This document shows, piece by piece, positions 1-22,905 of a stretch of 28,636 bases of DNA; within the stretch, counting starts at the first letter, position 1; each line of letters starts with the position of its first letter. Source of the DNA: a virus; the IMG/VR virus record IMGVR_UViG_3300042945_000623, positions 1 through 28,636 of that record, one strand, 5' to 3'. The notes below the pieces were generated by a model. The model was not told the origin of the DNA, made no database searches, and saw only the letters and a list, made by a program, of their open reading frames with translations. A program made the position numbers and the translations under genes.

Positions 1-158
1 TGGAACGCATTTATGTTGCATACCGTGCACTCTCAATCGAGAATGTTTCAGTATCAGCAAAGCGTGACGAAGCGACAATGTTCGAAGTATCATTCCGTCT
101 TCTTCCAAATGATGATGCGTCATACGGTAAGATCGTAGACCGCACTATCCCAGCATAA
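1..158 (+). CDS. Major tail (tube) protein, C-terminal 51 residues (5'-partial)
   Basis: Open in the third frame from base 3 to a TAA at 156-158, ending in the peptide GKIVDRTIPA. The start lies outside the window. The fragment alone does not identify the family. The call rests on position: in siphophages the major tail protein gene precedes the tail-assembly chaperones and tape measure, and this one is closed by a strong terminator. All five arginine codons are CGT or CGC, unlike the AGA-rich downstream tail genes, which fits a very highly expressed structural protein. An alternative is another abundant structural protein. Frame is certain; identity is inferred. Confidence 0.6.
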   Translation, partial: ERIYVAYRALSIENVSVSAKRDEATMFEVSFRLLPNDDASYGKIVDRTIPA

Positions 159-176
159 TACAACTTAATATGAGAA

Positions 177-207
177 GCCCAACCCTTCGGGGTTGGGTTT
201 TTCTTTT
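177..207 (+). terminator. Rho-independent terminator with UUCG tetraloop
   Basis: A perfect 8-bp stem (CCCAACCC / GGGTTGGG, 178-185 with 190-197) closes a TTCG tetraloop and is followed by TTTTTCTTTT. It sits 19 nt after the tail protein stop codon and ends transcription of the major tail protein before the chaperone genes. The stem can be extended at its base by G-T and A-T pairs into the T tract. Confidence 0.93.
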
Positions 208-215
208 GGTATACT
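207..215 (+). promoter_or_regulatory. Extended -10 promoter for leaderless chaperone transcript
   Basis: TGGTATACT has the TGn extended -10 element followed by a near-consensus hexamer. The hexamer ends 6 nt before the ATG at 222, so the predicted transcript starts at or within a base of the start codon. No Shine-Dalgarno is present between the terminator and the ATG, which fits leaderless translation, common in Actinobacteria. No convincing -35 box is visible. The element abuts the upstream terminator. Confidence 0.5.
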
Positions 216-221
216 TATATA

Positions 222-905
222 ATGGCTACAGAAGTTTATAAGACAAAAAATATTATTCTAGTTGATGATAGAGAACTAGAGTTGTCGCCATCAAAAATAA
301 AATATCTTAGAATGATTATGAATTATTTTGATAATGTTAGAAACTCTCAAGATGACATTGAGGCAATTACTCACTTAACAGAATGTGCTAGATTTGCAAT
401 GAAGCAGTTTTGTCCAGAGATAGCCGTAAGTCCTGAAGTTTTTGAAAACTATGTAGACATCCATATGGTTTATGAGATATTGGATGTTGCTGCAGGAATT
501 AAAATTAATGAGCAATCAGAAGATACTGTTAAAAAGCAAGCGGTTAAAGGTGGTAGTGCTTGGGAAGATTTAGATTTGGCACAACTAGAGGCAGAGGTAT
601 TTTTGCTGGGGATTTGGAAAGACTATGAAGAACTAGAAAAATCTTTATCTATGGCAGAACTAATGAAGACTCTAGAGGTAAGCCGTGAAGCAGATTATTC
701 AAACAAAAAATTCTTAGCAGCAATGCAGGGGGTTGACTTAGATAAAAATACAAAGAAGAGCAATGCTTGGGAAGAAATGAAAGCAAGGGTATTTAGTGGT
801 GGCGCATCAGGCGATCCAAATGATATACTTGCATATCAAGGAACTAATGCTCAAAAGGCTGGTTTTGGTATTGGGATGGGCCTACAATACGAAAGAGTTG
901 ATTAA
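222..905 (+). CDS. Tail assembly chaperone, fused G-T type
   Basis: 227 residues. Residues about 7-95 are clearly homologous to the next gene's product (shared pattern: LxD, PxKI, EC, KQ, PE and VY[ED]I[LI]DxAxGI). Residues about 113-227 form a second region (SAWEDLDLAQLEAEVFLLGI at its start, ending near AQKAGFGIGMGLQYE) that resembles the T part of actinophage G-T chaperones. Such proteins bind the tape measure and help assemble the tail tube around it. In most siphophages the T part is reached by a programmed frameshift from G; here it is continuous in one frame. There is no Shine-Dalgarno before the ATG, and a -10 box lies 6 nt upstream, so translation is probably leaderless. Arginine codons are mainly AGA, unlike the upstream tail protein. 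Family assignment rests on position and remembered sequence pattern. Confidence 0.75.
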   Translation: MATEVYKTKNIILVDDRELELSPSKIKYLRMIMNYFDNVRNSQDDIEAITHLTECARFAMKQFCPEIAVSPEVFENYVDIHMVYEILDVAAGIKINEQSEDTVKKQAVKGGSAWEDLDLAQLEAEVFLLGIWKDYEELEKSLSMAELMKTLEVSREADYSNKKFLAAMQGVDLDKNTKKSNAWEEMKARVFSGGASGDPNDILAYQGTNAQKAGFGIGMGLQYERVD

Positions 906-920
906 AAATAGGCTCGATTA

Positions 921-929
921 TGGTATAAT
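921..929 (+). promoter_or_regulatory. Extended -10 promoter before G-only chaperone
   Basis: TGGTATAAT, a consensus -10 with TGn extension, lies in the 51-nt gap between the two chaperone genes. A TTGATT at 898-903 is 20 bp upstream, too far for an ideal -35 box. The predicted start near 935 leaves a leader of about 20 nt containing a strong Shine-Dalgarno. Confidence 0.6.
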
Positions 930-956
930 TATTTTACTAACATGGGAGGCATTACA

Positions 957-1274
957 ATGGCAGAAAAAGCAAAAGACAAGAAGAAAGTTACATTAATCGA
1001 CGGAACAGAAATTGCCGTTCAACCACTAAAGATTTCACTTCTAAAACCATTTATGAAGAAGTTTGGAGAGTTGACTGGTGTAGCAGAAGATAACGAAAAG
1101 TCTATGGATGTTCTTCTAGAGTGTGTTCAAATTGCACTCAAGCAGTATAGTCCAGAACTTGCAGAAGATAGAGAGAAGATTGAAGATAACATTGACCTAC
1201 CAACGGTTTATGATATCATCGACGCAGCGTCAGGAATTCAACTTGGCGATTCAGCATCTCTGTTAAATATTTAA
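957..1274 (+). CDS. Tail assembly chaperone, G-only paralogue
   Basis: 105 residues. The ATG at 957 is preferred over the in-frame ATG at 942 because GGGAGG (944-949) lies 7 nt before it and would be inside the gene otherwise. The protein aligns without gaps over its first 36 residues to the preceding chaperone and continues to do so with one gap to residue about 96 (shared EC, LKQ/MKQ, PE, VYxIxDxAxGI), then stops at LLNI. It has no T-like extension, and the -1 and +1 frames after it close within a few codons, so no frameshift extension exists here. It probably acts as the abundant chaperone partner of the fused protein in tape-measure loading. It has its own promoter and strong ribosome binding site. 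Confidence 0.78.
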   Translation: MAEKAKDKKKVTLIDGTEIAVQPLKISLLKPFMKKFGELTGVAEDNEKSMDVLLECVQIALKQYSPELAEDREKIEDNIDLPTVYDIIDAASGIQLGDSASLLNI

Positions 1275-1302: not shown

Positions 1303-4300
1303 TTGGCTGATGTAAATGCAAATATTGACGTAAATTTAAATACGCAAGAAGCGTTAGCAAATCTACGCAATTTACAGGCAGGCCTCAGCCGATTTAATCA
1401 GTCCCTAACGCAGGGCAATGTTGCTGCTATGGATGCCCAAAAGGGCCTCAACCAACAACTGATACAGTCTATCAATGCTACTGGAAAGTTTGTTGCAAGT
1501 CAAAGAAACGTTTCATCTAGCACGGGGGCATTTACTGAGGCACTTGAGAAAAACAAACTCTCAATGCGAGAGTATTTTAGGTTCACAGCAGCAGCAGCCA
1601 CTGCAAACACAAAATCATTAAAGGGTGTCTTTGCACAAGAAAGAGACATAATCAATCGTGCTCGCAGAGACAGAGTAAAGGCTTTACAGACACAATACGT
1701 TCAACTTACAAATGCCAATGGCGACCTAGTTAAAGTTTTGCAGGTAGTTCCAAAGCACCTTCAGATGGTGAATGGCAAATATACTGACTATGCCACAAGA
1801 GTTCAAATGGCTGCACAAAGGCAGCAATTCCTTAATCAATTACTGAAGCAGGGATCAACACAACTTCTAAACTTTGGTAAGAACACTCAGTGGGCAGGTC
1901 GCCAGTTGATGGTTGGTCTAACTGTTCCACTTACAATGCTTGGGTCATACGCTTCCAAGGCATTTATGGAAATGGAAAAGGCTGTAATTAAATTTACTAG
2001 AGTCTATGGAGACATGACAACTAGTATGGGCGACACTGATGCAGCGGTAAAGCAGATTCAGACACTTGCAAAAGAATTTACAAAATATGGTATCGCAGTT
2101 GTAGATACAGTTACAATGGCTGCAGATGCAGCAGCAATGGGTTTAACTGGAAGCGCACTCACCGCACAGGTTACAGCAGCAACAAGACTTGCTGTTCTTG
2201 GTCAGGTTGAGCAGCAGCAAGCACTTGAAACTACAATATCTTTACAGAATGCTTTTGGAATTTCTTCTGAAGAATTAGCACACAAAATTAACTTTCTTAA
2301 CGCAGTTGAGAACCAGACAGTTCTATCTATTGAGGATTTAACTACAGCAATTCCAAAGGCTGGACCAGTTGTAAAGCAACTTGGTGGATCTGTAGAAGAC
2401 CTTGCATTCTTCATGACTGCAATGAAGGAAGGCGGAATCAACGCATCAGAAGGCGCTAACGCCCTTAAGTCTGGTCTTGCTTCTATGATTAACCCAGCAA
2501 AAAAGACAAGCGAATTTCTTGCTGGTCTTGGAATCAACATTAAAGGCATAGTAGATAATAATGCTGGCAATTTAAAAGGAACTGTTGTTGGACTTGCCCA
2601 GGCACTTGATACACTAGATCCACTAAACCGTGCTAGAGCAATTGAGCAACTATTTGGTAAGTTTCAGTTTTCTCGTCTATCAACATTGTTCCAAAACGTT
2701 GCAAAAGATTCTTCTCAAGCAGCCAGAGCATTAGGATTAGCAGGAGCATCTGTTGAGGAGTTGGCAATTCTATCTGAGCGAGAACTTGGTAAAGTAGAAG
2801 ACTCAGTAGGTATAAAGTTTAAAAAGTCTCTTGAAGATCTTAAACTTCAACTTGTTCCAGTAGGTAAAGCATTTTTGCAAGCAATTACTCCAATTGTAAA
2901 ATTTGCAGGAAAGATTCTTGAAAAGTTTAATAATCTTGGGGACGGAACAAAAAGAGTAATTACAACAATTATTGGCGTTCTAGGATTAGTTGCTCCAGCA
3001 GCCCTTATGACATTTGGTCTTGTTGCTAACGGAGTTGCAAACCTTATTAAGTTGTTTGCAATGATGAGAAATGGTATTGCAAAGTTAAACGGACAAAACA
3101 ACATTCTTGGCGGAGGGTTTGATTATCTTACTCAGGCAGAAACTGAAAACCTTGCACAGTCAAATGCACTTCACCTAACTCACAAAGATCTTATTGATAC
3201 TTTTAACGTAGAAACAGGAGCAGTAAATGCTCTTGCATTAGCATATACAAATGCAGCAAGTCAAGCAAGAACTCTTGCCTCTAGTGCTCCAGGCTTGTTT
3301 AACACTGTTCCAGGTCCTGCAGGTGCTGTTTCAGGATTACCAAAAGTAAAGAAATATGCAGAAGGAATCGTTAGCGTTCCAGGAACTGGTAATAAAGACA
3401 CCGTCCCAGCAATGCTTACACCTGGTGAGGCAGTAGTTCCAGCAGGAATTGCACAGAGTCCAACTGGCAAGGCAATGCTTTCTGCGCTGATGAATGATAA
3501 TGTAAGAAAATATAACGGCGGAACTCTTGGGGTAAACACAAAGCAAACAGCAGAAGAGTTGGTTAGATTAAATAGAGAAGATTTTATAGCAGCAGTTGCA
3601 CAAATGGGTCCAAACCCTACATCCCAGGCTGCAATTGCAAAAGAACTAACAGAAGAACTTACAAAAGCAGCAGAAAGAGTAGGACCAGAGTTTGCAGATA
3701 GACTTAAGACTGCAATTGCAACAGGACTTGCTGAGTTAGAAAAAGTTACAGCAAAGGCAATTGAAAATCTAACAAAACAGACAGACTCCGTAACTGGAAA
3801 ACCATTTAGAGGGCAGTATCACAAAAAGTCTTCAACAACTTTTGAGGACGAAGAATATGTGTTTGCTCACGGGGTTGCTCCACATGAACAAGTTAATGAC
3901 CCAGCAGAGTTAAGAAGACTTAGCAGTCAGTCACAGAGAGTTGCACCAGATGGAACCAGAACAGATACTGGACTTTCAGACGCTTTTGCAGGCGCTGCAG
4001 AAAATGGTGGTCGTGCTTACGGATTAAGTAGTTTTGGATTTATGATGCCTGAAGCAGCAAACAAAAGAGATGCTGGTGGAGGCTTTGAAATGCCAAAGGC
4101 TCAGATTGCTGAGTTATTTACTGGTCCAAATGCAGGAAAAACCTTGGCTCCTGTTTATCAAGAGTGGGCAAGAATTCAGGGAACCACATTAGAGAAAGTG
4201 CTAAAAGATCCAGCACAATTTGCAAGACTACAAGAAAGCATGGATAGTTATGGTGGAATTCTTTCTGAAGAAATTAGCAATCTTCCAGAAAATTTTGGAG

Positions 4301-7300
4301 AAGAAGAGTTTTATGGTGCAGTCGCCAGGGCAAATGAAAGAATAAGTTCTGCAGATGCAACATTAAGGCAGGCAGTAGACAACCTATTAAAGACAACAAC
4401 CTATGCTGTTTTTGACCCAAACGATGGAAGAGATGGTCAGGGAAATAGAATTTCAGTTCCTAAAAAAACTGATGTTCCTTTAAGACAAGAACTTGGATTA
4501 CAAGATGAAGTTCAGGTAGATGGAAAAACTAAGACATCTTTACAAGGAACATACCAAAAGCAAAATATGGCAAGCCTAACAGTTGGGTCTACTATAGATA
4601 AAGCAAGAGCAGACGGAGCCGCTTTAGGAGCAGCAGTTATAGATGGACTTCGTGGTCCAGATGGAACAGATGCATCATCACCCTCTAAAAAGGGTAGAAA
4701 GGCTGGTAAAGAGGTTGCAGATGGTATTGTGGAGGGAATGCGAGATGGAGAAGCAGGAGTAAGGGCTCAATCATCAAGACTTGGAAATTCAGCAGTTCCT
4801 ACGGCAGCAGAAACACAAGCAAGAGTTGACAGAATGGATCTTCCTAATAAGGCATTCTACGATGACCTAAACACTCCAGAATTCCTTGAGCAAAGACAGA
4901 TACTTAAGTCACAAGATAGACAAAGAAGAAAGCGTGGAGCAACTGCAACAGTAGACTCTATGTCCGATACCCCAGTTGCAACACCAACTACATCGTTGAC
5001 TATTGCATCGTCAAAAAGAACATCAGATGCATCCGAGCAATTAGCAATTAAAACAGAAGAAGCAGTGACTGCACAAACTCAAGTAGTTCAGCAGATTAGA
5101 GACGAAAGCAAGTCAAGAGTTACCATTAAGGGTAATACAATCAATGTTCAAAAGGCTCGTGAAGATGCTGATAAGGCTGAGAATGAAGCAGCAATCACCA
5201 GAGCACGTGCAGCAGCAATTGAAAATGAGCAAGCAGCACAAAGAGCAAAGAATTCCCCAACAACAATTACTGATGAGCAAGTAAAGGCTGCAAAAGAAAA
5301 GGCTAATGAGGCAGAACTAAGACATGCTGAAGCAAGACAAAAATGGGCAGAAGCAGAAATTGCTAATGCAGAAAATATTGATATATCTGAAGATGATGTA
5401 AAGAAGCCAGGTAAAATTCAAAAGATACAAGACAAAAATAATGAAATTATTTCTAATGGAACACAAGAGCAAGGCGATGGCCTCAGACGTATTGTTGAAG
5501 GAACAAATGATACAGCAGAATCTACAACCTTAGTTGCAGACAAGACTGATGAACTAGTAGATGCAACATCTGAAACTGTAGATGCACAAACAACCCATGC
5601 AGACAATGTTGTTACAAGTAGTGAACTAGCAAATGCAACATCTAATAATTTAGAAAATGTAGTTAATGCAACACAACAGACTGGCATTTCTCAAGAAGAT
5701 ATAGCAAATTCATCAGAAGAGATATCTCAAACTAATGATAAGATTTCAAAAGAAAAAAGAGAAGCCCTTAGACTTGAAGAAGAGGCCAATAGAAAGAAGC
5801 GAGCAGAACTTGGTCAGCCACCTTTAAGTGGTCCAATTCCACCAGGAAGTCAGGCTGGTAATAAAATTCCTTCAACCTATGTTGATATTGACGAAGCACT
5901 TGCAGAGGCATATGGAACAGATACCACACAGGGATTTACCCAAAATAAAAAGGGACAGATCATACTTGACCCAGAAACTGGACAACCAACAACTCTTAGT
6001 GAGAAACAAGTTCTTAAGAAGAAGCGTGGAATGCGTAGAGAAAAGGCTAGCAAGTTTTCTGGAAAAGCAGCAGGGGCTCTTGGTATGGCAACAATGGTTG
6101 CAGGCACAGTCGGTGCCCCACCAGCAGTAACTGGTGCTCTTGGAACCGCAGCAGGTCTTGCACAAATGGCCCCAATGCTTGCTGGCATGGGTCCTGTTGG
6201 ATGGATTACAGCAGCAATTATAGCGGTTGGCTCTGGACTTGCTTTATTAAATAAAAGACTTCAAGCATCATATGCTGCACAGGCAAAGTTTGTTCGTGAG
6301 ACATCTGCTTCAACGCAAAAGATGAAAGAGATTGGAATGATCACTGGCAAGGTGGGCGCTTCTGAACTTCAGGCTCGAAAGAGAGCAGGGGGAACAACCA
6401 GAGACTACATTACTAGAGAGAGAGCGGGATCTTCTTTTGGCGATACATTTATGCAGTCTGATACTGGCAAAAATATGGCTAAAACGCTTCAAGCCAATGT
6501 TCAAAAATCTGGGGCAAAACAAGCAGCAGAAACATTTGCAACAGAGATTGCAGCATATGTTCAAGATGGAGTTTTAACTGCAGCACAGGCTCAAGACATT
6601 GCTTATCAAATTGGAGTTAATTTTAAAGATACATCGCTTGGAATTAAAATTGATGCAAACCTTGCAGCACTTATAGGTCCAAACGGAGAAGATCTTACAA
6701 AAGACCCTATCATTATTGGAACAAGGCTAATACAGTCTGCAGAAAATAGAGCAGCAGCATCAGTTCTAGATATTGATAAAGCAAAAGGTTATGGTTTGTC
6801 TGGAGCAGTTGAAGCAGCAGATCTTGGTGCAAAAGATGCAGTTGCTATACAGATGGCACAGATGCAGGCAGATGCGGTTGCTAAAAGATATGATGATGAA
6901 ATTAGAACATTAGAAACACAACTTGCACAAACAAAGAACAAAGAAGCACAGATTAAACTTGAAGATGAATTAAGTGCTCTAAAGGAAAAAGCAAATGATG
7001 CAGAATTCCAGATGAACAACCTTGTTGCTAATCAAACAGATAATGCAATGAAGAGGTTTACTGAAAATATTCAATATCAAAATACAACCATCGATGCTGT
7101 AACTTTTGGTCTATATAAACTTTGGGGAGCAGGAAACCAAAGAGAGGCAGCATACACTCAGTCGCTTAATGCAGCGGTAACTGATAAGTATGCAAATACA
7201 GAACAAGCATCACAAGCCGCAACAGTTTCGGACAGACTTTCAAAGTTTGCCGACGGTAAAACTCTGGGCTTTGGAACAAATAATTATGAAGACGCAGGCT

Positions 7301-10300
7301 TTACTAGTGGAATGGAAGCCCAACAGTTTGAAGTAAAGATGAAACTATTAATGGCAAACGGAACACTTACTCCAAACCAAACAACAGCAATGCTTGATTT
7401 ATTTGAAGGCAACCTTCCACAACTTGAAACAGTTTTAGATATTGGAACAAGAATGCATGGGGCTTCTGGAACTGCCGAACTCATGATGATGCTAACAAAC
7501 TTTCAAGATAAAACATATGCACAAGACATTGCATTTGAAATAACAACAAAAGATAATGATACATTTAAAAAACTATCAGACATTATTGGTCTCGCTTCCT
7601 GGCTTGACGGAAAAGAAATCGATATGGAAGTTGTTATTAAAAATGCAGGAGGAGTTCAAGGATTAGAATACTACATCGCCAGACTTGATGAACTTGAGAC
7701 AAAAATAAAAGGGCTTAAGGGTAAACCTATAACACAAGAAGATGTTGCTCAATTTACAAAAGATACAGATGTAAAGGTAACTGATAAATATCTTGACTAT
7801 GTAAATAAAGAGTTTAAGGGTGATTCAAAGAAACAAACAAACGCAATTAGAACATATACACTAATCTATGATCAGATCATGTCAATGGACTACACAAGTG
7901 AAGCAGCAAAAAAATACTTTGAATCACAAGCAGGACAGATAGCCCTTGATAAACTTAATGCACTTAGAAAAGAGGGAAATGCTCCAGCAGACTTTAAGAC
8001 ATATCTAACACAACAAACAAAACTTGAGATTGATGCATTGATTACAAAGGTTAAGTTAGATCCTGCTGCTGTTTCAACTGACAAAGCAATTACTGCACAA
8101 GGAATAAAACCAATAATTGATCCAAATGCAGCAGGACCTGTAAAAACTCCTGGTGGCGGTAAGGCAGACAATCCATTAGACTTTTTAGATGCTCTTGGAA
8201 TGCGTATTAAGATGATCAGAGATCAATCATTTAAAGCAACTAAGTCAGTTGAGTCTATGCTTGCAGCGTTTAGAAGTAAGGCTGCACAAAAAGATGTTTC
8301 CAATATGTTTAAGTTGTTCGACGGATTACAGCAAAGACTTATTGCATTAAAAGCACCAAAAGAATTTAGAGATCATATTGCAGGACTCGACGCAAAGGGA
8401 TTAGAAGCGTTAAAGAATAAGGATGCAGACCCAACTAAAGCAGGTAATCAGTCAATGTTTACCTACGAAACCAAAAAGGTTAAAGGTAAGACCGTTGTTG
8501 ATAAAAGTAGAATTGCTGGTTTCTCTGAAGCAGGCAAAGCATTTATGGCAGCATACAATGAGGCCCCTCTAGCAGAGTTTAACGTTGAACAAGCAGAAGC
8601 AATTCAAAATACAAATAATCAGTATAAGGCTTTTGCAATGCTTAAGGCTGGAGGAGTAGATACTGCAAAGGCTTTAGATGCTGTGTCTAATGCAGCAGTT
8701 GCTGCAGCCCTAACCTCTGGCTTACTTGCAAAGACAGACTTAGATAAGTATATAGCAGATATAAAGACTGCGAATGCTGCATTACAAAAACAAGCAGTAA
8801 TTAATGACTTAATAGCAAAGAATGCAGCAATGGACTTTGCTGCAAAGTCTATGCCTGAACTTGCTTCTGCATTGAAGGCTTCTGGATACTCAGTAGAACA
8901 AATCGCAAATGTGTTAGAAGATCCAAACCTTGCCAAAGAATTAATTGAAGACCTTAAGGATGGCAAGGTTGACTCAAAAGCAATTTCAGATTACCTAAAT
9001 AATATTAAAGGTCAAAAAATTGTTGAGATTAAGGGTAAGTTTAATGCTGGAGATTTTGCTGCAGCAGCAGCACCTGGTATGGAACTTGTTAATAGAATGT
9101 TTGCTGTTCAGGAACAACTTATTAGAACTGGTGTCGACGCTAGATCTACAGAAATGGTTAATCGTTTAAAATCTAACAAGGATGCAAATGAAAAGGCACA
9201 GTTAGATATTCAAAATATTACATTTAAACAGATTGCTCCAATTCAAAAAACAATTGAAGCAGCACAGCGCAAGATGGAACTTGAAATTATTCGTGTTATT
9301 GAAGCCTATCAAGAAGAGATAAGCGACATGCAAAGAGTAATTGAAATGGCATTTGAAAGACCAATTCAAAAGATTAATGAGCAGAACGCACAACTAACAC
9401 ACGATCTTGATGTAATGAATCATGCTGCAGAGCAAATTAATAAGAGTTATGATGATCAGGCTACAGCACTTTCCAAGGTTGCAGAAGTTAATGCTCAGAT
9501 TGTTAATCAACAGAAGCAACAGTTAGGCCTTGCAGATGCCTTGTCACAAGGTGATATTGCAGCAGCAGCCCGTGCTGCACAAGAAATGCGAGCATCTCAA
9601 GCAGATAGAAATGCAGAAAATGCGTCAAAGGCTTTGGAACAATCAAGACAAAACGAACTTAATAATCTTAGAGGAGAAAAGTCTGGGCTTACACGAGAAC
9701 AAATAACAGAGAAGCAATATCAAAATGCTCAAAAGATATATGAACTTGAAAACACAGCAACCACCAAGGTTGGCAATGAAATGCTTACAAGGCTACAACT
9801 CCTCGACAGAATTCAGAGAAAGCAAGATGATATATATACCTTAGAAGAAAAAAGAGAAGCAGCGCAACTTGACATTCGTGCATCAGAAGACGCTATCTAC
9901 AAGATTAATAAGGAGCAGGTTGAGCCTATACAGGATGCTATAGACGCAAGAAATAATCAAATTGCAAATGATGAATATGCAATGCAGCAACTAGTTAACA
10001 ACATTCAGGTTCAGGGACAAACTAGAGACCACTGGGATAGAGTTACGGCAAAGATCGAAGCATCATCCGTTGCAGGGCAAGACTTCGATAACCTTATGGG
10101 ATCAATGCTTGCTTCAGTTGGAGAGATTGACAAAGGCTGGGCAAAAATTAATGAAACAATTGGACTTAATGCTAAGGGCGTAACCGAAGGAGCCAAGGCA
10201 GTAAAGGATGCAATGCTTAAAGAGTCTGCTGGTTATGAACAGGCTCAAGCAGTTAAGATAGCAAATGCTAAAATAGCAGAAGCAGCAGCACAAAAAGAAT

Positions 10301-11775
10301 ATGAAACTAAAATGGCTGCCTATGATGCAGAAGTAGCAAGAATCAAAAGACTCCAAAGTCTTGGACTTCCAAGTCAAGTTGTAAATGATATGACCTCAAA
10401 ATTAGTTAAACCAAAGGCTCCAGTAGTGGGTCCAACAGAGGCAGCGGATAATCCAAATGTTTCTTACAATAATACATCTGTTAATACCGCAGATCAATAC
10501 AGAAAAGATAATCTTAAGGATGTAAAGCCATCAAAATCTGACGGAACTGGAACTGGAACAGGTTCTGGTGGCGGAGGTGGATCAGGTGGAAGCAAAACTA
10601 CTAACACAACTCCAACGCCGACCCCAACCCCAACTCCTACCCCTACCCCTACTCCAACGCCTACACCTAATCAAGTAGTTGTTGGTGGGGTAGTTAAAAG
10701 ATTTGCCCCTATGAGAGCACAGGGAACAACAGCAGCACAGCGAGCAGCAGAAATGGCACTAGCAAATAGTGGCGGAACTAGTGGATTATTAGCCTCACAG
10801 ACGGCTGCAAAAAATACCAGGGACAGAGCACTTGATAGATTAAAAGATTATAAGGGTAAGGATGCAAGTGGAAATATAATAACTGATATAGCATCTAGTA
10901 ATGAAACTGATTATCAAAGACTTACATTGGAGAGTAGGGCAGGCTGGGATAGAATAAATGCAGAATATCAGAAAGCCAAGAAGCAATATGATGATTTCTC
11001 TCGTGACAGTTCTGGTAAAACTGTTTCAGTTGGAGAAAGTAAGGCAGGAGAAGCAATTAAAAAAAGGTCTTTCTCATTGCTTCCACAGTGGATAAAAGAT
11101 TCTATTAAGATTATCAATGAAAGTAAAACTCTATTTGATGAAGATTATAGTAAATTTCTAAAAGCAGAAGAATTATACAATAAAGTTAAAAAAGATAATG
11201 GTTTTGACAAACTTGATTGGTCTGAAATTGTTAAAGATCCAGGCAAACTTAAAATTGTCAAGCCTTCACACGATGCTTATGTTATTGCTCTTAAGCAAAT
11301 GGCAGCAAATAACGACTATGTAGACAAGGCTAGATGGACTCTCAGAGATAGTGGTTTTACAAATACGAATCTTGGTTGGGCAATAGATGGCCCTAATGCT
11401 GCTTATCCATTAAACGAATATTCTGCGTCTGGAGACATAACTCCAGAGTATCTTAGAAAAAAGAAAATGACCTATTATGCAACTGGAGGTTTTGTTGCTT
11501 CTACGTTTGGTCAAAAGAAATTTAGCATGGGGACTGATACTGTTCCAGCAATGTTAACCCCAGGAGAGTTTGTAATGAGTAGATATGCCGTAAATGCTCA
11601 TGGGGCAGAAAATATGAGAGCCATAAATAATGGCACAGCCATTGGCGAATCAGTGTATAATTATAACCTAAGCGTTAATGTAAAATCTGATGCAAACCCT
11701 GACGATATCGCAAGAGTCGTTATGGCACAAATCAGGGGTATTGACTCACAAAGAGTTAAGGGGAATAGATTCTAA
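1303..11775 (+). CDS. Tape measure protein, 3,490 residues
   Basis: This protein sets tail length and is threaded through the tube. The start is TTG at 1303, 6 nt after GAGGGTG (1290-1296). Layout: N-terminal helices; a TP901/PhageMin-type tape measure domain at about 190-540 (AADAAAMGLTG, NASEGANALKSGLASM); a hydrophobic helical segment at about 551-588; a DTVPAMLTPGE motif near 700-710; an unassigned globular-looking region at about 845-1075; an SPSKKGRKAGKEVADGIVEG stretch common in tape measures near 1125; Ala/Glu-rich coiled coil near 1285-1365; a Gly/Ala-rich hydrophobic segment at about 1588-1650; and a long coiled coil at about 2637-2897 containing GLADALSQGDIAAAARAAQE. A Gly/Ser stretch and ten Thr-Pro repeats (3103-3122) follow. 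A second DTVPAMLTPGE lies near 3412-3422. At about 0.15 nm per residue the tail would be near 0.5 micrometre. No known lysozyme or peptidase motif was recognised. Confidence 0.95.
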   Translation: MADVNANIDVNLNTQEALANLRNLQAGLSRFNQSLTQGNVAAMDAQKGLNQQLIQSINATGKFVASQRNVSSSTGAFTEALEKNKLSMREYFRFTAAAATANTKSLKGVFAQERDIINRARRDRVKALQTQYVQLTNANGDLVKVLQVVPKHLQMVNGKYTDYATRVQMAAQRQQFLNQLLKQGSTQLLNFGKNTQWAGRQLMVGLTVPLTMLGSYASKAFMEMEKAVIKFTRVYGDMTTSMGDTDAAVKQIQTLAKEFTKYGIAVVDTVTMAADAAAMGLTGSALTAQVTAATRLAVLGQVEQQQALETTISLQNAFGISSEELAHKINFLNAVENQTVLSIEDLTTAIPKAGPVVKQLGGSVEDLAFFMTAMKEGGINASEGANALKSGLASMINPAKKTSEFLAGLGINIKGIVDNNAGNLKGTVVGLAQALDTLDPLNRARAIEQLFGKFQFSRLSTLFQNVAKDSSQAARALGLAGASVEELAILSERELGKVEDSVGIKFKKSLEDLKLQLVPVGKAFLQAITPIVKFAGKILEKFNNLGDGTKRVITTIIGVLGLVAPAALMTFGLVANGVANLIKLFAMMRNGIAKLNGQNNILGGGFDYLTQAETENLAQSNALHLTHKDLIDTFNVETGAVNALALAYTNAASQARTLASSAPGLFNTVPGPAGAVSGLPKVKKYAEGIVSVPGTGNKDTVPAMLTPGEAVVPAGIAQSPTGKAMLSALMNDNVRKYNGGTLGVNTKQTAEELVRLNREDFIAAVAQMGPNPTSQAAIAKELTEELTKAAERVGPEFADRLKTAIATGLAELEKVTAKAIENLTKQTDSVTGKPFRGQYHKKSSTTFEDEEYVFAHGVAPHEQVNDPAELRRLSSQSQRVAPDGTRTDTGLSDAFAGAAENGGRAYGLSSFGFMMPEAANKRDAGGGFEMPKAQIAELFTGPNAGKTLAPVYQEWARIQGTTLEKVLKDPAQFARLQESMDSYGGILSEEISNLPENFGEEEFYGAVARANERISSADATLRQAVDNLLKTTTYAVFDPNDGRDGQGNRISVPKKTDVPLRQELGLQDEVQVDGKTKTSLQGTYQKQNMASLTVGSTIDKARADGAALGAAVIDGLRGPDGTDASSPSKKGRKAGKEVADGIVEGMRDGEAGVRAQSSRLGNSAVPTAAETQARVDRMDLPNKAFYDDLNTPEFLEQRQILKSQDRQRRKRGATATVDSMSDTPVATPTTSLTIASSKRTSDASEQLAIKTEEAVTAQTQVVQQIRDESKSRVTIKGNTINVQKAREDADKAENEAAITRARAAAIENEQAAQRAKNSPTTITDEQVKAAKEKANEAELRHAEARQKWAEAEIANAENIDISEDDVKKPGKIQKIQDKNNEIISNGTQEQGDGLRRIVEGTNDTAESTTLVADKTDELVDATSETVDAQTTHADNVVTSSELANATSNNLENVVNATQQTGISQEDIANSSEEISQTNDKISKEKREALRLEEEANRKKRAELGQPPLSGPIPPGSQAGNKIPSTYVDIDEALAEAYGTDTTQGFTQNKKGQIILDPETGQPTTLSEKQVLKKKRGMRREKASKFSGKAAGALGMATMVAGTVGAPPAVTGALGTAAGLAQMAPMLAGMGPVGWITAAIIAVGSGLALLNKRLQASYAAQAKFVRETSASTQKMKEIGMITGKVGASELQARKRAGGTTRDYITRERAGSSFGDTFMQSDTGKNMAKTLQANVQKSGAKQAAETFATEIAAYVQDGVLTAAQAQDIAYQIGVNFKDTSLGIKIDANLAALIGPNGEDLTKDPIIIGTRLIQSAENRAAASVLDIDKAKGYGLSGAVEAADLGAKDAVAIQMAQMQADAVAKRYDDEIRTLETQLAQTKNKEAQIKLEDELSALKEKANDAEFQMNNLVANQTDNAMKRFTENIQYQNTTIDAVTFGLYKLWGAGNQREAAYTQSLNAAVTDKYANTEQASQAATVSDRLSKFADGKTLGFGTNNYEDAGFTSGMEAQQFEVKMKLLMANGTLTPNQTTAMLDLFEGNLPQLETVLDIGTRMHGASGTAELMMMLTNFQDKTYAQDIAFEITTKDNDTFKKLSDIIGLASWLDGKEIDMEVVIKNAGGVQGLEYYIARLDELETKIKGLKGKPITQEDVAQFTKDTDVKVTDKYLDYVNKEFKGDSKKQTNAIRTYTLIYDQIMSMDYTSEAAKKYFESQAGQIALDKLNALRKEGNAPADFKTYLTQQTKLEIDALITKVKLDPAAVSTDKAITAQGIKPIIDPNAAGPVKTPGGGKADNPLDFLDALGMRIKMIRDQSFKATKSVESMLAAFRSKAAQKDVSNMFKLFDGLQQRLIALKAPKEFRDHIAGLDAKGLEALKNKDADPTKAGNQSMFTYETKKVKGKTVVDKSRIAGFSEAGKAFMAAYNEAPLAEFNVEQAEAIQNTNNQYKAFAMLKAGGVDTAKALDAVSNAAVAAALTSGLLAKTDLDKYIADIKTANAALQKQAVINDLIAKNAAMDFAAKSMPELASALKASGYSVEQIANVLEDPNLAKELIEDLKDGKVDSKAISDYLNNIKGQKIVEIKGKFNAGDFAAAAAPGMELVNRMFAVQEQLIRTGVDARSTEMVNRLKSNKDANEKAQLDIQNITFKQIAPIQKTIEAAQRKMELEIIRVIEAYQEEISDMQRVIEMAFERPIQKINEQNAQLTHDLDVMNHAAEQINKSYDDQATALSKVAEVNAQIVNQQKQQLGLADALSQGDIAAAARAAQEMRASQADRNAENASKALEQSRQNELNNLRGEKSGLTREQITEKQYQNAQKIYELENTATTKVGNEMLTRLQLLDRIQRKQDDIYTLEEKREAAQLDIRASEDAIYKINKEQVEPIQDAIDARNNQIANDEYAMQQLVNNIQVQGQTRDHWDRVTAKIEASSVAGQDFDNLMGSMLASVGEIDKGWAKINETIGLNAKGVTEGAKAVKDAMLKESAGYEQAQAVKIANAKIAEAAAQKEYETKMAAYDAEVARIKRLQSLGLPSQVVNDMTSKLVKPKAPVVGPTEAADNPNVSYNNTSVNTADQYRKDNLKDVKPSKSDGTGTGTGSGGGGGSGGSKTTNTTPTPTPTPTPTPTPTPTPTPNQVVVGGVVKRFAPMRAQGTTAAQRAAEMALANSGGTSGLLASQTAAKNTRDRALDRLKDYKGKDASGNIITDIASSNETDYQRLTLESRAGWDRINAEYQKAKKQYDDFSRDSSGKTVSVGESKAGEAIKKRSFSLLPQWIKDSIKIINESKTLFDEDYSKFLKAEELYNKVKKDNGFDKLDWSEIVKDPGKLKIVKPSHDAYVIALKQMAANNDYVDKARWTLRDSGFTNTNLGWAIDGPNAAYPLNEYSASGDITPEYLRKKKMTYYATGGFVASTFGQKKFSMGTDTVPAMLTPGEFVMSRYAVNAHGAENMRAINNGTAIGESVYNYNLSVNVKSDANPDDIARVVMAQIRGIDSQRVKGNRF
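10609..10668 (+). repeat. Thr-Pro hexanucleotide repeat inside the tape measure gene
   Basis: Ten tandem ACN-CCN units encode (Thr-Pro)x10, directly after a Gly/Ser-rich segment (GTGTGSGGGGGSGGS). The third codon positions vary, so the repeat is kept at protein level more than at DNA level. It probably forms an extended, flexible linker separating the coiled-coil part from the C-terminal end of the tape measure. Confidence 0.9.
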
Positions 11776-18946: not shown

Positions 18947-18955
18947 TGGTATAAT
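18947..18955 (+). promoter_or_regulatory. Extended -10 promoter, leaderless start for the next gene
   Basis: TGGTATAAT begins right after the TAA stop of the previous gene and ends 5 nt before the ATG at 18961. The predicted start site falls on or next to that ATG and there is no Shine-Dalgarno. It is the same TGGTATAAT nonamer as at 921-929. No good -35 box is visible. Confidence 0.55.
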
Positions 18956-18960
18956 ATATT

Positions 18961-19404
18961 ATGGCTAAAATTCCACTACCAGAAAGAGGGCAACCGCTAG
19001 ACGTTGCCTACATTTATCAATTAGCAAATGCTATTAATGATTTGGCCTCTCAGTCATCATCATCCACATATAAGTATGTAACTGTAGATACTAAAGACTT
19101 AGGGCCACAATATGTAAAGGTGTCCGAGTCTAGAATTATTGGTGGATATATAGATATCTACAATAATACAAATATTACTGCTAGCGAAGAAAAGCCATTC
19201 TCATATGACTTTAAGGTAGACTTCAAGTATGCTCCGATTGTAACGGCAACAGTAGTCAACAATGGAGATTCTGACCAAGGAAACGATGTATCTGTTGTAA
19301 TTAAAAGAGTTACAACAAGCAAGGTTGATGGCATTGTAAGATTTAATAAGACTGGAAAGATGTCTGTTGGATTAAACATAATCGTAGTTGGTATACCCAA
19401 CTAA
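18961..19404 (+). CDS. Small tail protein, possible lectin-like tip
   Basis: 147 residues. The N-terminus (PLPERGQPLDVAYIYQLANA) resembles a tail-protein attachment helix. The C-terminal half (FSYDFKVDFKYAPIVTATVV, then VSVVIKRVTTSKVDGIVRFN, ending LNIIVVGIPN) has strand spacing like an H-type lectin or receptor-binding tip. It is the last recognisable structural gene before the DNA-metabolism block. Unlike the genes before it, it does not overlap its neighbour upstream: a consensus -10 box sits 5 nt before its ATG, suggesting separate leaderless expression. The lectin idea is a weak inference. Confidence 0.6.
   Translation: MAKIPLPERGQPLDVAYIYQLANAINDLASQSSSSTYKYVTVDTKDLGPQYVKVSESRIIGGYIDIYNNTNITASEEKPFSYDFKVDFKYAPIVTATVVNNGDSDQGNDVSVVIKRVTTSKVDGIVRFNKTGKMSVGLNIIVVGIPN
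19385..19403 (+). promoter_or_regulatory. Perfect 7-bp inverted repeat abutting a start codon; possible operator
   Basis: TAGTTGG-TATAC-CCAACTA is a perfect hairpin with a 5-nt loop that ends one base before the ATG at 19404 and spans the upstream stop. No T run follows, so it is not a terminator. It also contains TGGTATACC (19389-19397), a weak copy of the extended -10 box 6 nt before the ATG. It could be an operator or an RNA hairpin; function is inferred. Confidence 0.4.
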
Positions 19405-22578: not shown

Positions 22579-22905
22579 GTGGAAAAATTTCATCATAGAC
22601 CAATTAAAAAGTTTAACCTCAACGGGGTCATTCACGATGACTCTGCTATTGGTAGGCTTAAAGGAGAATATATAAGACTACTAGTCTCAGAAATGAGACT
22701 GTCTGGATATGTTCCAAAATTTGAAATTGATCCAGATTTTACTATAGACTTTAACGAGACAAAAAAATATTTTGAATTTGAGATAACACTATACGGAATA
22801 TATGTAGGGAAAAGGAAAAGCGAATGGATAGCAGGAATAGACGGAAACAAGGCGATATATATACAAAAGAGCAAATCAAACGAATTCTCGCAGGAACAGG
22901 TATAG
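22579..22905 (+). CDS. Conserved hypothetical protein between helicase and primase
   Basis: 108 residues from GTG, with no Shine-Dalgarno and a -10 box 5 nt upstream. It reads as one alpha helix (SAIGRLKGEYIRLLVSEMRL) followed by a beta-rich part (FEFEITLYGIYVGKRKSEWI, then GNKAIYI). I recall similar proteins next to actinophage helicase and primase genes but no assigned role. Its last 82 nt overlap the primase start in another frame. A replication accessory is the obvious guess from its position. Confidence 0.65.
   Translation: MEKFHHRPIKKFNLNGVIHDDSAIGRLKGEYIRLLVSEMRLSGYVPKFEIDPDFTIDFNETKKYFEFEITLYGIYVGKRKSEWIAGIDGNKAIYIQKSKSNEFSQEQV

Follow-up and report, generated by a model that had tools for sequence, protein, structure and literature searches.

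How does a long-tailed phage make both of its tail assembly chaperones when the gene for the short one and the gene for the long one are separate? Few features of long-tailed phages are as conserved as the frameshift by which one gene gives rise to G and GT. In lambda, for example, a -1 frameshift yields gpG and gpGT in a proportion of about 30:1 (review PMC5009743). The locus considered here resembles that of lambda in having a short G and a longer G-T form beside the tape measure gene, and the action of the proteins is assumed to be alike; however, lambda obtains its two forms by frameshifting and the present phage has two genes for them. The window, i.e., the whole stretch of DNA analysed, comprises 28,636 bases, and its features are as follows.

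1-28,636: viral contig IMGVR_UViG_3300042945_000623, the whole of which is the window
3..158, + strand: C-terminal end of the major tail protein gene, by homology to Streptomyces phage genes
172..203, + strand: intrinsic terminator between the major tail protein gene and GT, with a 14-pair stem and a T tail
207..215, + strand: predicted extended -10 promoter of GT, TGGTATACT, ending 6 nt before the ATG at 222
222..905, + strand: GT gene (227 aa), an in-frame fusion of G and T, by PHROG matches, census, dN/dS and AlphaFold2
about 222-518, + strand: G domain within GT, by its phrog_10504 match
about 555-902, + strand: T domain within GT, by its phrog_10474 match
921..929, + strand: predicted extended -10 promoter of G2, TGGTATAAT, its TATAAT being kept in relatives
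944..949, + strand: Shine-Dalgarno sequence of G2, GGGAGG, with GGAGG or a related motif kept in relatives
957..1274, + strand: G2 gene (G only, 105 aa), by its phrog_10504 match, structural match and dN/dS
1303..11775, + strand: tape measure protein gene (3,490 aa), with a TTG start and GAGGG upstream

The order of major tail protein, GT, G2 and tape measure genes is kept across the relatives. The partial gene at 3..158 shares 52-58% identity over 52 aa with its counterparts in Circinus, Jay2Jay and Genie2, and Circinus gp33 and Genie2 gp58 are annotated as major tail protein. The terminator that follows has an RNA fold of -24.2 kcal/mol (z -6.9), and a stem-loop occupies its place in most relatives as well. 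The tape measure protein matches the Pfam family PhageMin_Tail (E 2e-27) and is 31% identical over 604 aa to that of Circinus. When judged on the tail module only (major tail protein, chaperone domains and tape measure), the phage appears to be related to the Stanwilliamsviridae. Tails usually measure 0.15 nm per tape measure residue, and the 3,490-aa protein would at this rate predict a tail of ~520 nm.

The relationship between the two products is slightly closer than in the preliminary description, which had put it at about 90 residues with the first 36 gapless. BLASTP aligns the ORFs 222-905 and 957-1274 over 100 residues with 32% identity and 59% similarity (E 2e-18), and the alignment has one 1-residue gap, after residue 40. 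G2 matches phrog_10504 (E 1.8e-19), which is matched also by the G part of GT. The T-like extension that had been described in frame on the first ORF is indeed a T domain, as the 3' part of this ORF (about residues 112-190) matches phrog_10474, the -1-frame T ORF of Streptomyces phages, at E 1e-16. Hence, the C-terminal half of the first protein is homologous to the domain that frameshifting relatives place in the -1 frame, rather than unrelated to T. Homologues found by tblastn belong to the Stanwilliamsviridae (Streptomyces phages) and to a few Rhodococcus phages, and many of them are labelled tail assembly chaperone. The AlphaFold2 model of GT has a mean pLDDT of 78, with values above 90 in the G part, and the secondary-structure elements of the G part follow in identical order in the GT and G2 models. 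Foldseek matched the G2 model to an annotated tail assembly chaperone (TM 0.75, E 8e-7) and to others more weakly. The profile searches and structure predictions proposed earlier for both proteins thus return G and T families and a chaperone-like fold for G2.

The locus therefore has the marks of tail assembly chaperone genes, which include a short and a long protein with a common N-terminal G domain, a site between the tail tube and tape measure genes, and homology and fold similarity to known chaperones. It could be argued that the products are not chaperones, given that Pfam searches with both proteins gave sub-threshold matches only, that sequence and fold searches of the PDB with both gave no convincing match and that phrog_10504 and phrog_10474 are PHROG families without assigned function. 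The gene site, the annotated homologues in cultured phages, the Foldseek E-value and the G/G-T layout make such a view extremely improbable. It is highly likely that the long chaperone (GT) of a siphovirus-like phage is encoded at 222-905 and the short one (G) at 957-1274, the full explanation through duplication and start signals, set out below, being included in this assessment.

The prevalence of the arrangement was assessed on a set of more than 400 related loci from viral contigs and annotated phages. G and T profiles were built, every forward frame was scored with them, and identical regions were removed before counting. The two-gene arrangement, i.e., G and T fused in frame and followed by a separate G, is found in 235 deduplicated loci (215 complete and 20 cut by the contig end), and GT is kept in a single frame in every one of them. 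The single-gene arrangement, in which T lies in another frame than G, is found in 65 deduplicated loci; the remaining loci are truncated, chimeric or damaged. A frameshifted G/T accompanied by a second G was found in no locus of the census, and a fused GT alone in no intact one. Two candidate exceptions were rejected. In L047, which has GT without G2, an unrelated frame on the opposite strand, presumably that of a queuosine-type epoxidoreductase-like protein, joins right after the G2 start (L047:3734-4100), and the contig is probably a chimeric assembly. In L236, the G2 is broken over two frames by what looks like a single-contig indel. The two-gene viruses are a large aquatic group, with actinobacteria as the probable hosts, and their soil relatives appear to be set up for programmed ribosomal slippage, which would give both forms from a single gene. 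A search of the GTDB genomes with the GT profile for host assignment found no relative.

Every single-gene locus examined has its T domain in the -1 frame. For example, five Streptomyces phages of the Stanwilliamsviridae (Jay2Jay, Circinus, TunaTartare, Annadreamy, and Genie2) share the homologous G and T domains and the gene site with the window, but they have one G gene, a -1-frame T overlapping the end of G and no second G, where the window has an in-frame GT and a separate G. The G/T of TunaTartare is annotated as a joined CDS. Most of these phages carry CCCAAAT; Jay2Jay and Genie2 are without any of the tested heptamers. Across the single-gene representatives, an in-frame C_CCA_AAY or G_GGA_AAC is present in the G/T overlap of 22 out of 28, and the further single-gene loci that were listed beyond these 28 all carry CCCAAAY or GGGAAAC. 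The other six representatives are Jay2Jay/Genie2-like and have GAC CCG GAA at that place. GAC CCG GAA replaces C_CCA_AAY at the G end, with T in the -1 frame, in L081, L085, L094, L131, L133, and L138. On the strength of sequence and annotation, the single-gene relatives are expected to frameshift.

CCCAAAY and GGGAAAC are absent from the GT junction and from the G2 end in all 57 two-gene representatives. The window likewise has no slippery heptamer at either position, and thus lacks the signal of a lambda-type frameshift. The preliminary description had named a frameshift product of the second gene as evidence that would overturn it; the slippery heptamers of the relatives occur in neither the second ORF nor GT. 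One could still suppose that a hidden frameshift persists in GT or G2 and that the second gene is a spare copy, since A-rich heptamers occur at the GT junction of 9/57 two-gene loci and TTTAAAY at the G2 end of 5/57. However, these heptamers are scattered, unlike those of the single-gene phages, and the window has none of them. The second ORF also ends at the G part, as had been claimed, and T-like sequence is absent downstream of it in every forward frame, both in the window and in the two-gene relatives. Moreover, synonymous divergence between close pairs shows no dip at the GT junction, and a hidden second signal is unlikely there because this divergence is not reduced. The persistence of a frameshift is, hence, very improbable.

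The start signals of the two genes are those given in the preliminary description, with TGGTATACT at 207-215 and no Shine-Dalgarno sequence before GT, and with TGGTATAAT at 921-929, GGGAGG at 944-949 and the ATG at 957 for G2. The automatic ORF list gives 942 as the start of G2; position 957 was taken on the basis of the Shine-Dalgarno sequence and the homologues. A -10-like hexamer, mostly TATACT, precedes GT in 57/57 distinct two-gene loci, with a TG extension in 55/57, and lies 6 nt before the ATG in 45/57 and 6-9 nt before it in 56/57. A Shine-Dalgarno-like motif before GT is found in one of these loci. In the window as a whole, such a box stands 5-9 nt upstream of just 1.5% of the ATGs. 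The spacing between box and ATG predicts that transcription of GT begins at or next to the ATG, giving a leaderless mRNA. The G2 gene has TATAAT in all 57 distinct loci, in 56 of them with a TG extension, and the box usually stands 24-27 nt ahead of the ATG; the Shine-Dalgarno sequence of G2 is GGAGG in 48 loci and a related motif in the other nine. Both promoters are predictions from consensus sequences. The separate expression of GT and G2 that had been proposed is reflected in a leaderless GT and a leadered, Shine-Dalgarno-bearing G2 in 57 distinct loci, and the two-gene features are not due to chance, as they are kept in more than 50 distinct relatives.

In the single-gene phages, G usually has a leader, and its spacing and Shine-Dalgarno sequence resemble those of G2. 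G2 appears to share its transcript with the tape measure gene, because a -10 box between the two was found in none of 55 two-gene loci. Among the single-gene loci, a TGnTATAAT box of the tape measure gene's own is found only in close relatives of the two-gene phages (L140, L153, L169, L243, L258, L366, and L425/L437). The first 30 codons of GT (222-311) show the lowest synonymous divergence between close pairs, 0.19-0.20 against 0.25-0.55 in most of the gene, which is perhaps a signal of leaderless initiation. Elsewhere in the window, the gene at 18961-19404 (147 aa) also looks leaderless: a TGGTATAAT box (within 18947-18961) ends 5 nt ahead of the ATG, and a Shine-Dalgarno sequence is lacking. 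Similarly, the GTG start at 22579 has a TATAAT at a distance similar to that of the gene at 18961-19404.

The G:GT ratio would in such phages be set at initiation. The promoter of GT, mostly TATACT, would give a leaderless mRNA; G would have a TATAAT promoter of its own, a leader and a Shine-Dalgarno sequence. Read-through from the GT promoter would add to G2 only, so that G would be transcribed at least as often as GT. As in lambda, the tape measure protein may then be coated by G, and GT, as the rarer form, may recruit the tail tube protein through its T. A leaderless start need not mean less protein, since leaderless and leadered transcripts of M. tuberculosis show no overall difference in mRNA:protein ratio (PMC3898074). 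In the same bacterium, median RNA levels are higher for genes with a Shine-Dalgarno sequence, and the TGN extension is associated with stronger promoters (PMC3898074). An excess of G protein over GT is thus plausible, though not proven.

The two genes may instead encode a duplicated pair that assembles together, with G1, the G domain of GT, as a specialised form and G2 as the bulk partner. The start signals would then fix no ratio, and surplus or missing chaperone would be tolerated or corrected by degradation. G1 and G2, being ~32% identical and members of separate clades, need not be interchangeable. Yet 57 distinct loci retain the contrast between a leaderless and a leadered start, and the ratio is reported to matter in lambda (review PMC5009743), which renders this account rather unlikely.

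The sequences of both genes are informative about the origin of the arrangement. Purifying selection on G1, T and G2 is strong, with median dN/dS over 44 close pairs of 0.05, 0.035, and 0.05, respectively. The distances of G1 and G2 are correlated (r 0.48), and none of 500 shuffles gave a value as high. In the G tree, G1 forms one clade (100/99) and G2 another (99/92), and the G of the aquatic single-gene phages joins G2 (99/90). An earlier tree with Streptomyces frameshift phages only had left the three G groups unresolved, and the addition of the aquatic frameshift phages placed G2 with these. As the single-gene G joins G2, the latter would be the copy close to the ancestral G and the G1 in GT the diverged copy, the direction of change being inferred from midpoint rooting. 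In addition, the survey of relatives for intermediate forms, which had been suggested as a check, yielded no intact arrangement beyond the two but brought up L153, a single-gene locus with GGGAAAC and a -1-frame T, the C-terminus of which resembles that of the two-gene phages. In form, L153 may be close to an ancestor. It carries an TGATATACT box (L153:2660-2684) 8 nt before an in-frame ATG that lies 24 nt upstream of the homologous G start, and this box might be a step towards a leaderless start.

These observations are consistent with the following succession of events. An ancestor would have made G and GT by -1 frameshifting. Its G gene would then have been duplicated, and one copy fixed in frame with T would have diverged into the G1 of GT. 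The other copy, G2, would have retained the ancestral G sequence and the start with leader and Shine-Dalgarno sequence, and would be transcribed together with the tape measure gene.

The T domain tells a less simple story. In the best T tree, two small single-gene groups (L293/L317/L330/L333 and L214/L243/L258/L425) nest within the two-gene set, which hints at an exchanged cassette, several switches, or a reversal; T, or the cassette as a whole, may have passed between phages. The two-gene arrangement may accordingly have been gained or lost repeatedly, or may move as a recombining cassette, rather than stem from one switch. Against this, the G tree has a single supported clade for G1 and another for G2, and the G of the nested groups falls just outside G2. 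Besides, a single two-gene clade on T is not rejected (p-AU 0.42), and an earlier T tree with fewer single-gene rows had one two-gene clade (94/89), which is not the best tree on wider sampling. Repeated origin or cassette movement is thus conceivable but doubtful. A single switch is fairly probable, in which the aquatic clade replaced -1 frameshifting once by duplication and in-frame fusion and ratio control moved to two unlike start signals (a leaderless GT, and a leadered G linked to the tape measure gene), while close sisters kept the slippery site.

Separate genes for a short and a long chaperone are reported also for T4-like phages, and in T4 the pair is taken to be gp26 and gp51. These two proteins are homologous (E 2e-6), and their genes lie back to back on opposite strands, whereas those of the window are in tandem on one strand with leaderless and leadered starts. 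As candidate distant relatives of the window proteins, gp26 and gp51 were not supported, with hhalign probabilities of 0.6 and 2.8, obtained with single T4 sequences and of limited sensitivity. According to the account in PMC10885494, Vladimirov, Gautam and Davidson (2022, Virology 566:9-15) have already proposed that T4-like phages use separate genes for the short and long chaperones, a precedent absent from the preliminary description. The present two-gene phages differ from the T4-like case in having frameshifting sister lineages, and their arrangement probably arose independently. A limited literature search returned no report of such an arrangement in phages that are siphovirus-like or infect actinobacteria.

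With the frameshift missing from a large natural clade and present in its close relatives, a direct comparison can address whether the ratio or the slippage itself is important, and also by what route a recoding event may be lost. For annotators and frameshift predictors, an adjacent pair of chaperone genes need not represent one frameshifted gene. Likewise, the conserved pair of leaderless and leadered starts would be a natural design to fix the ratio of two related proteins.
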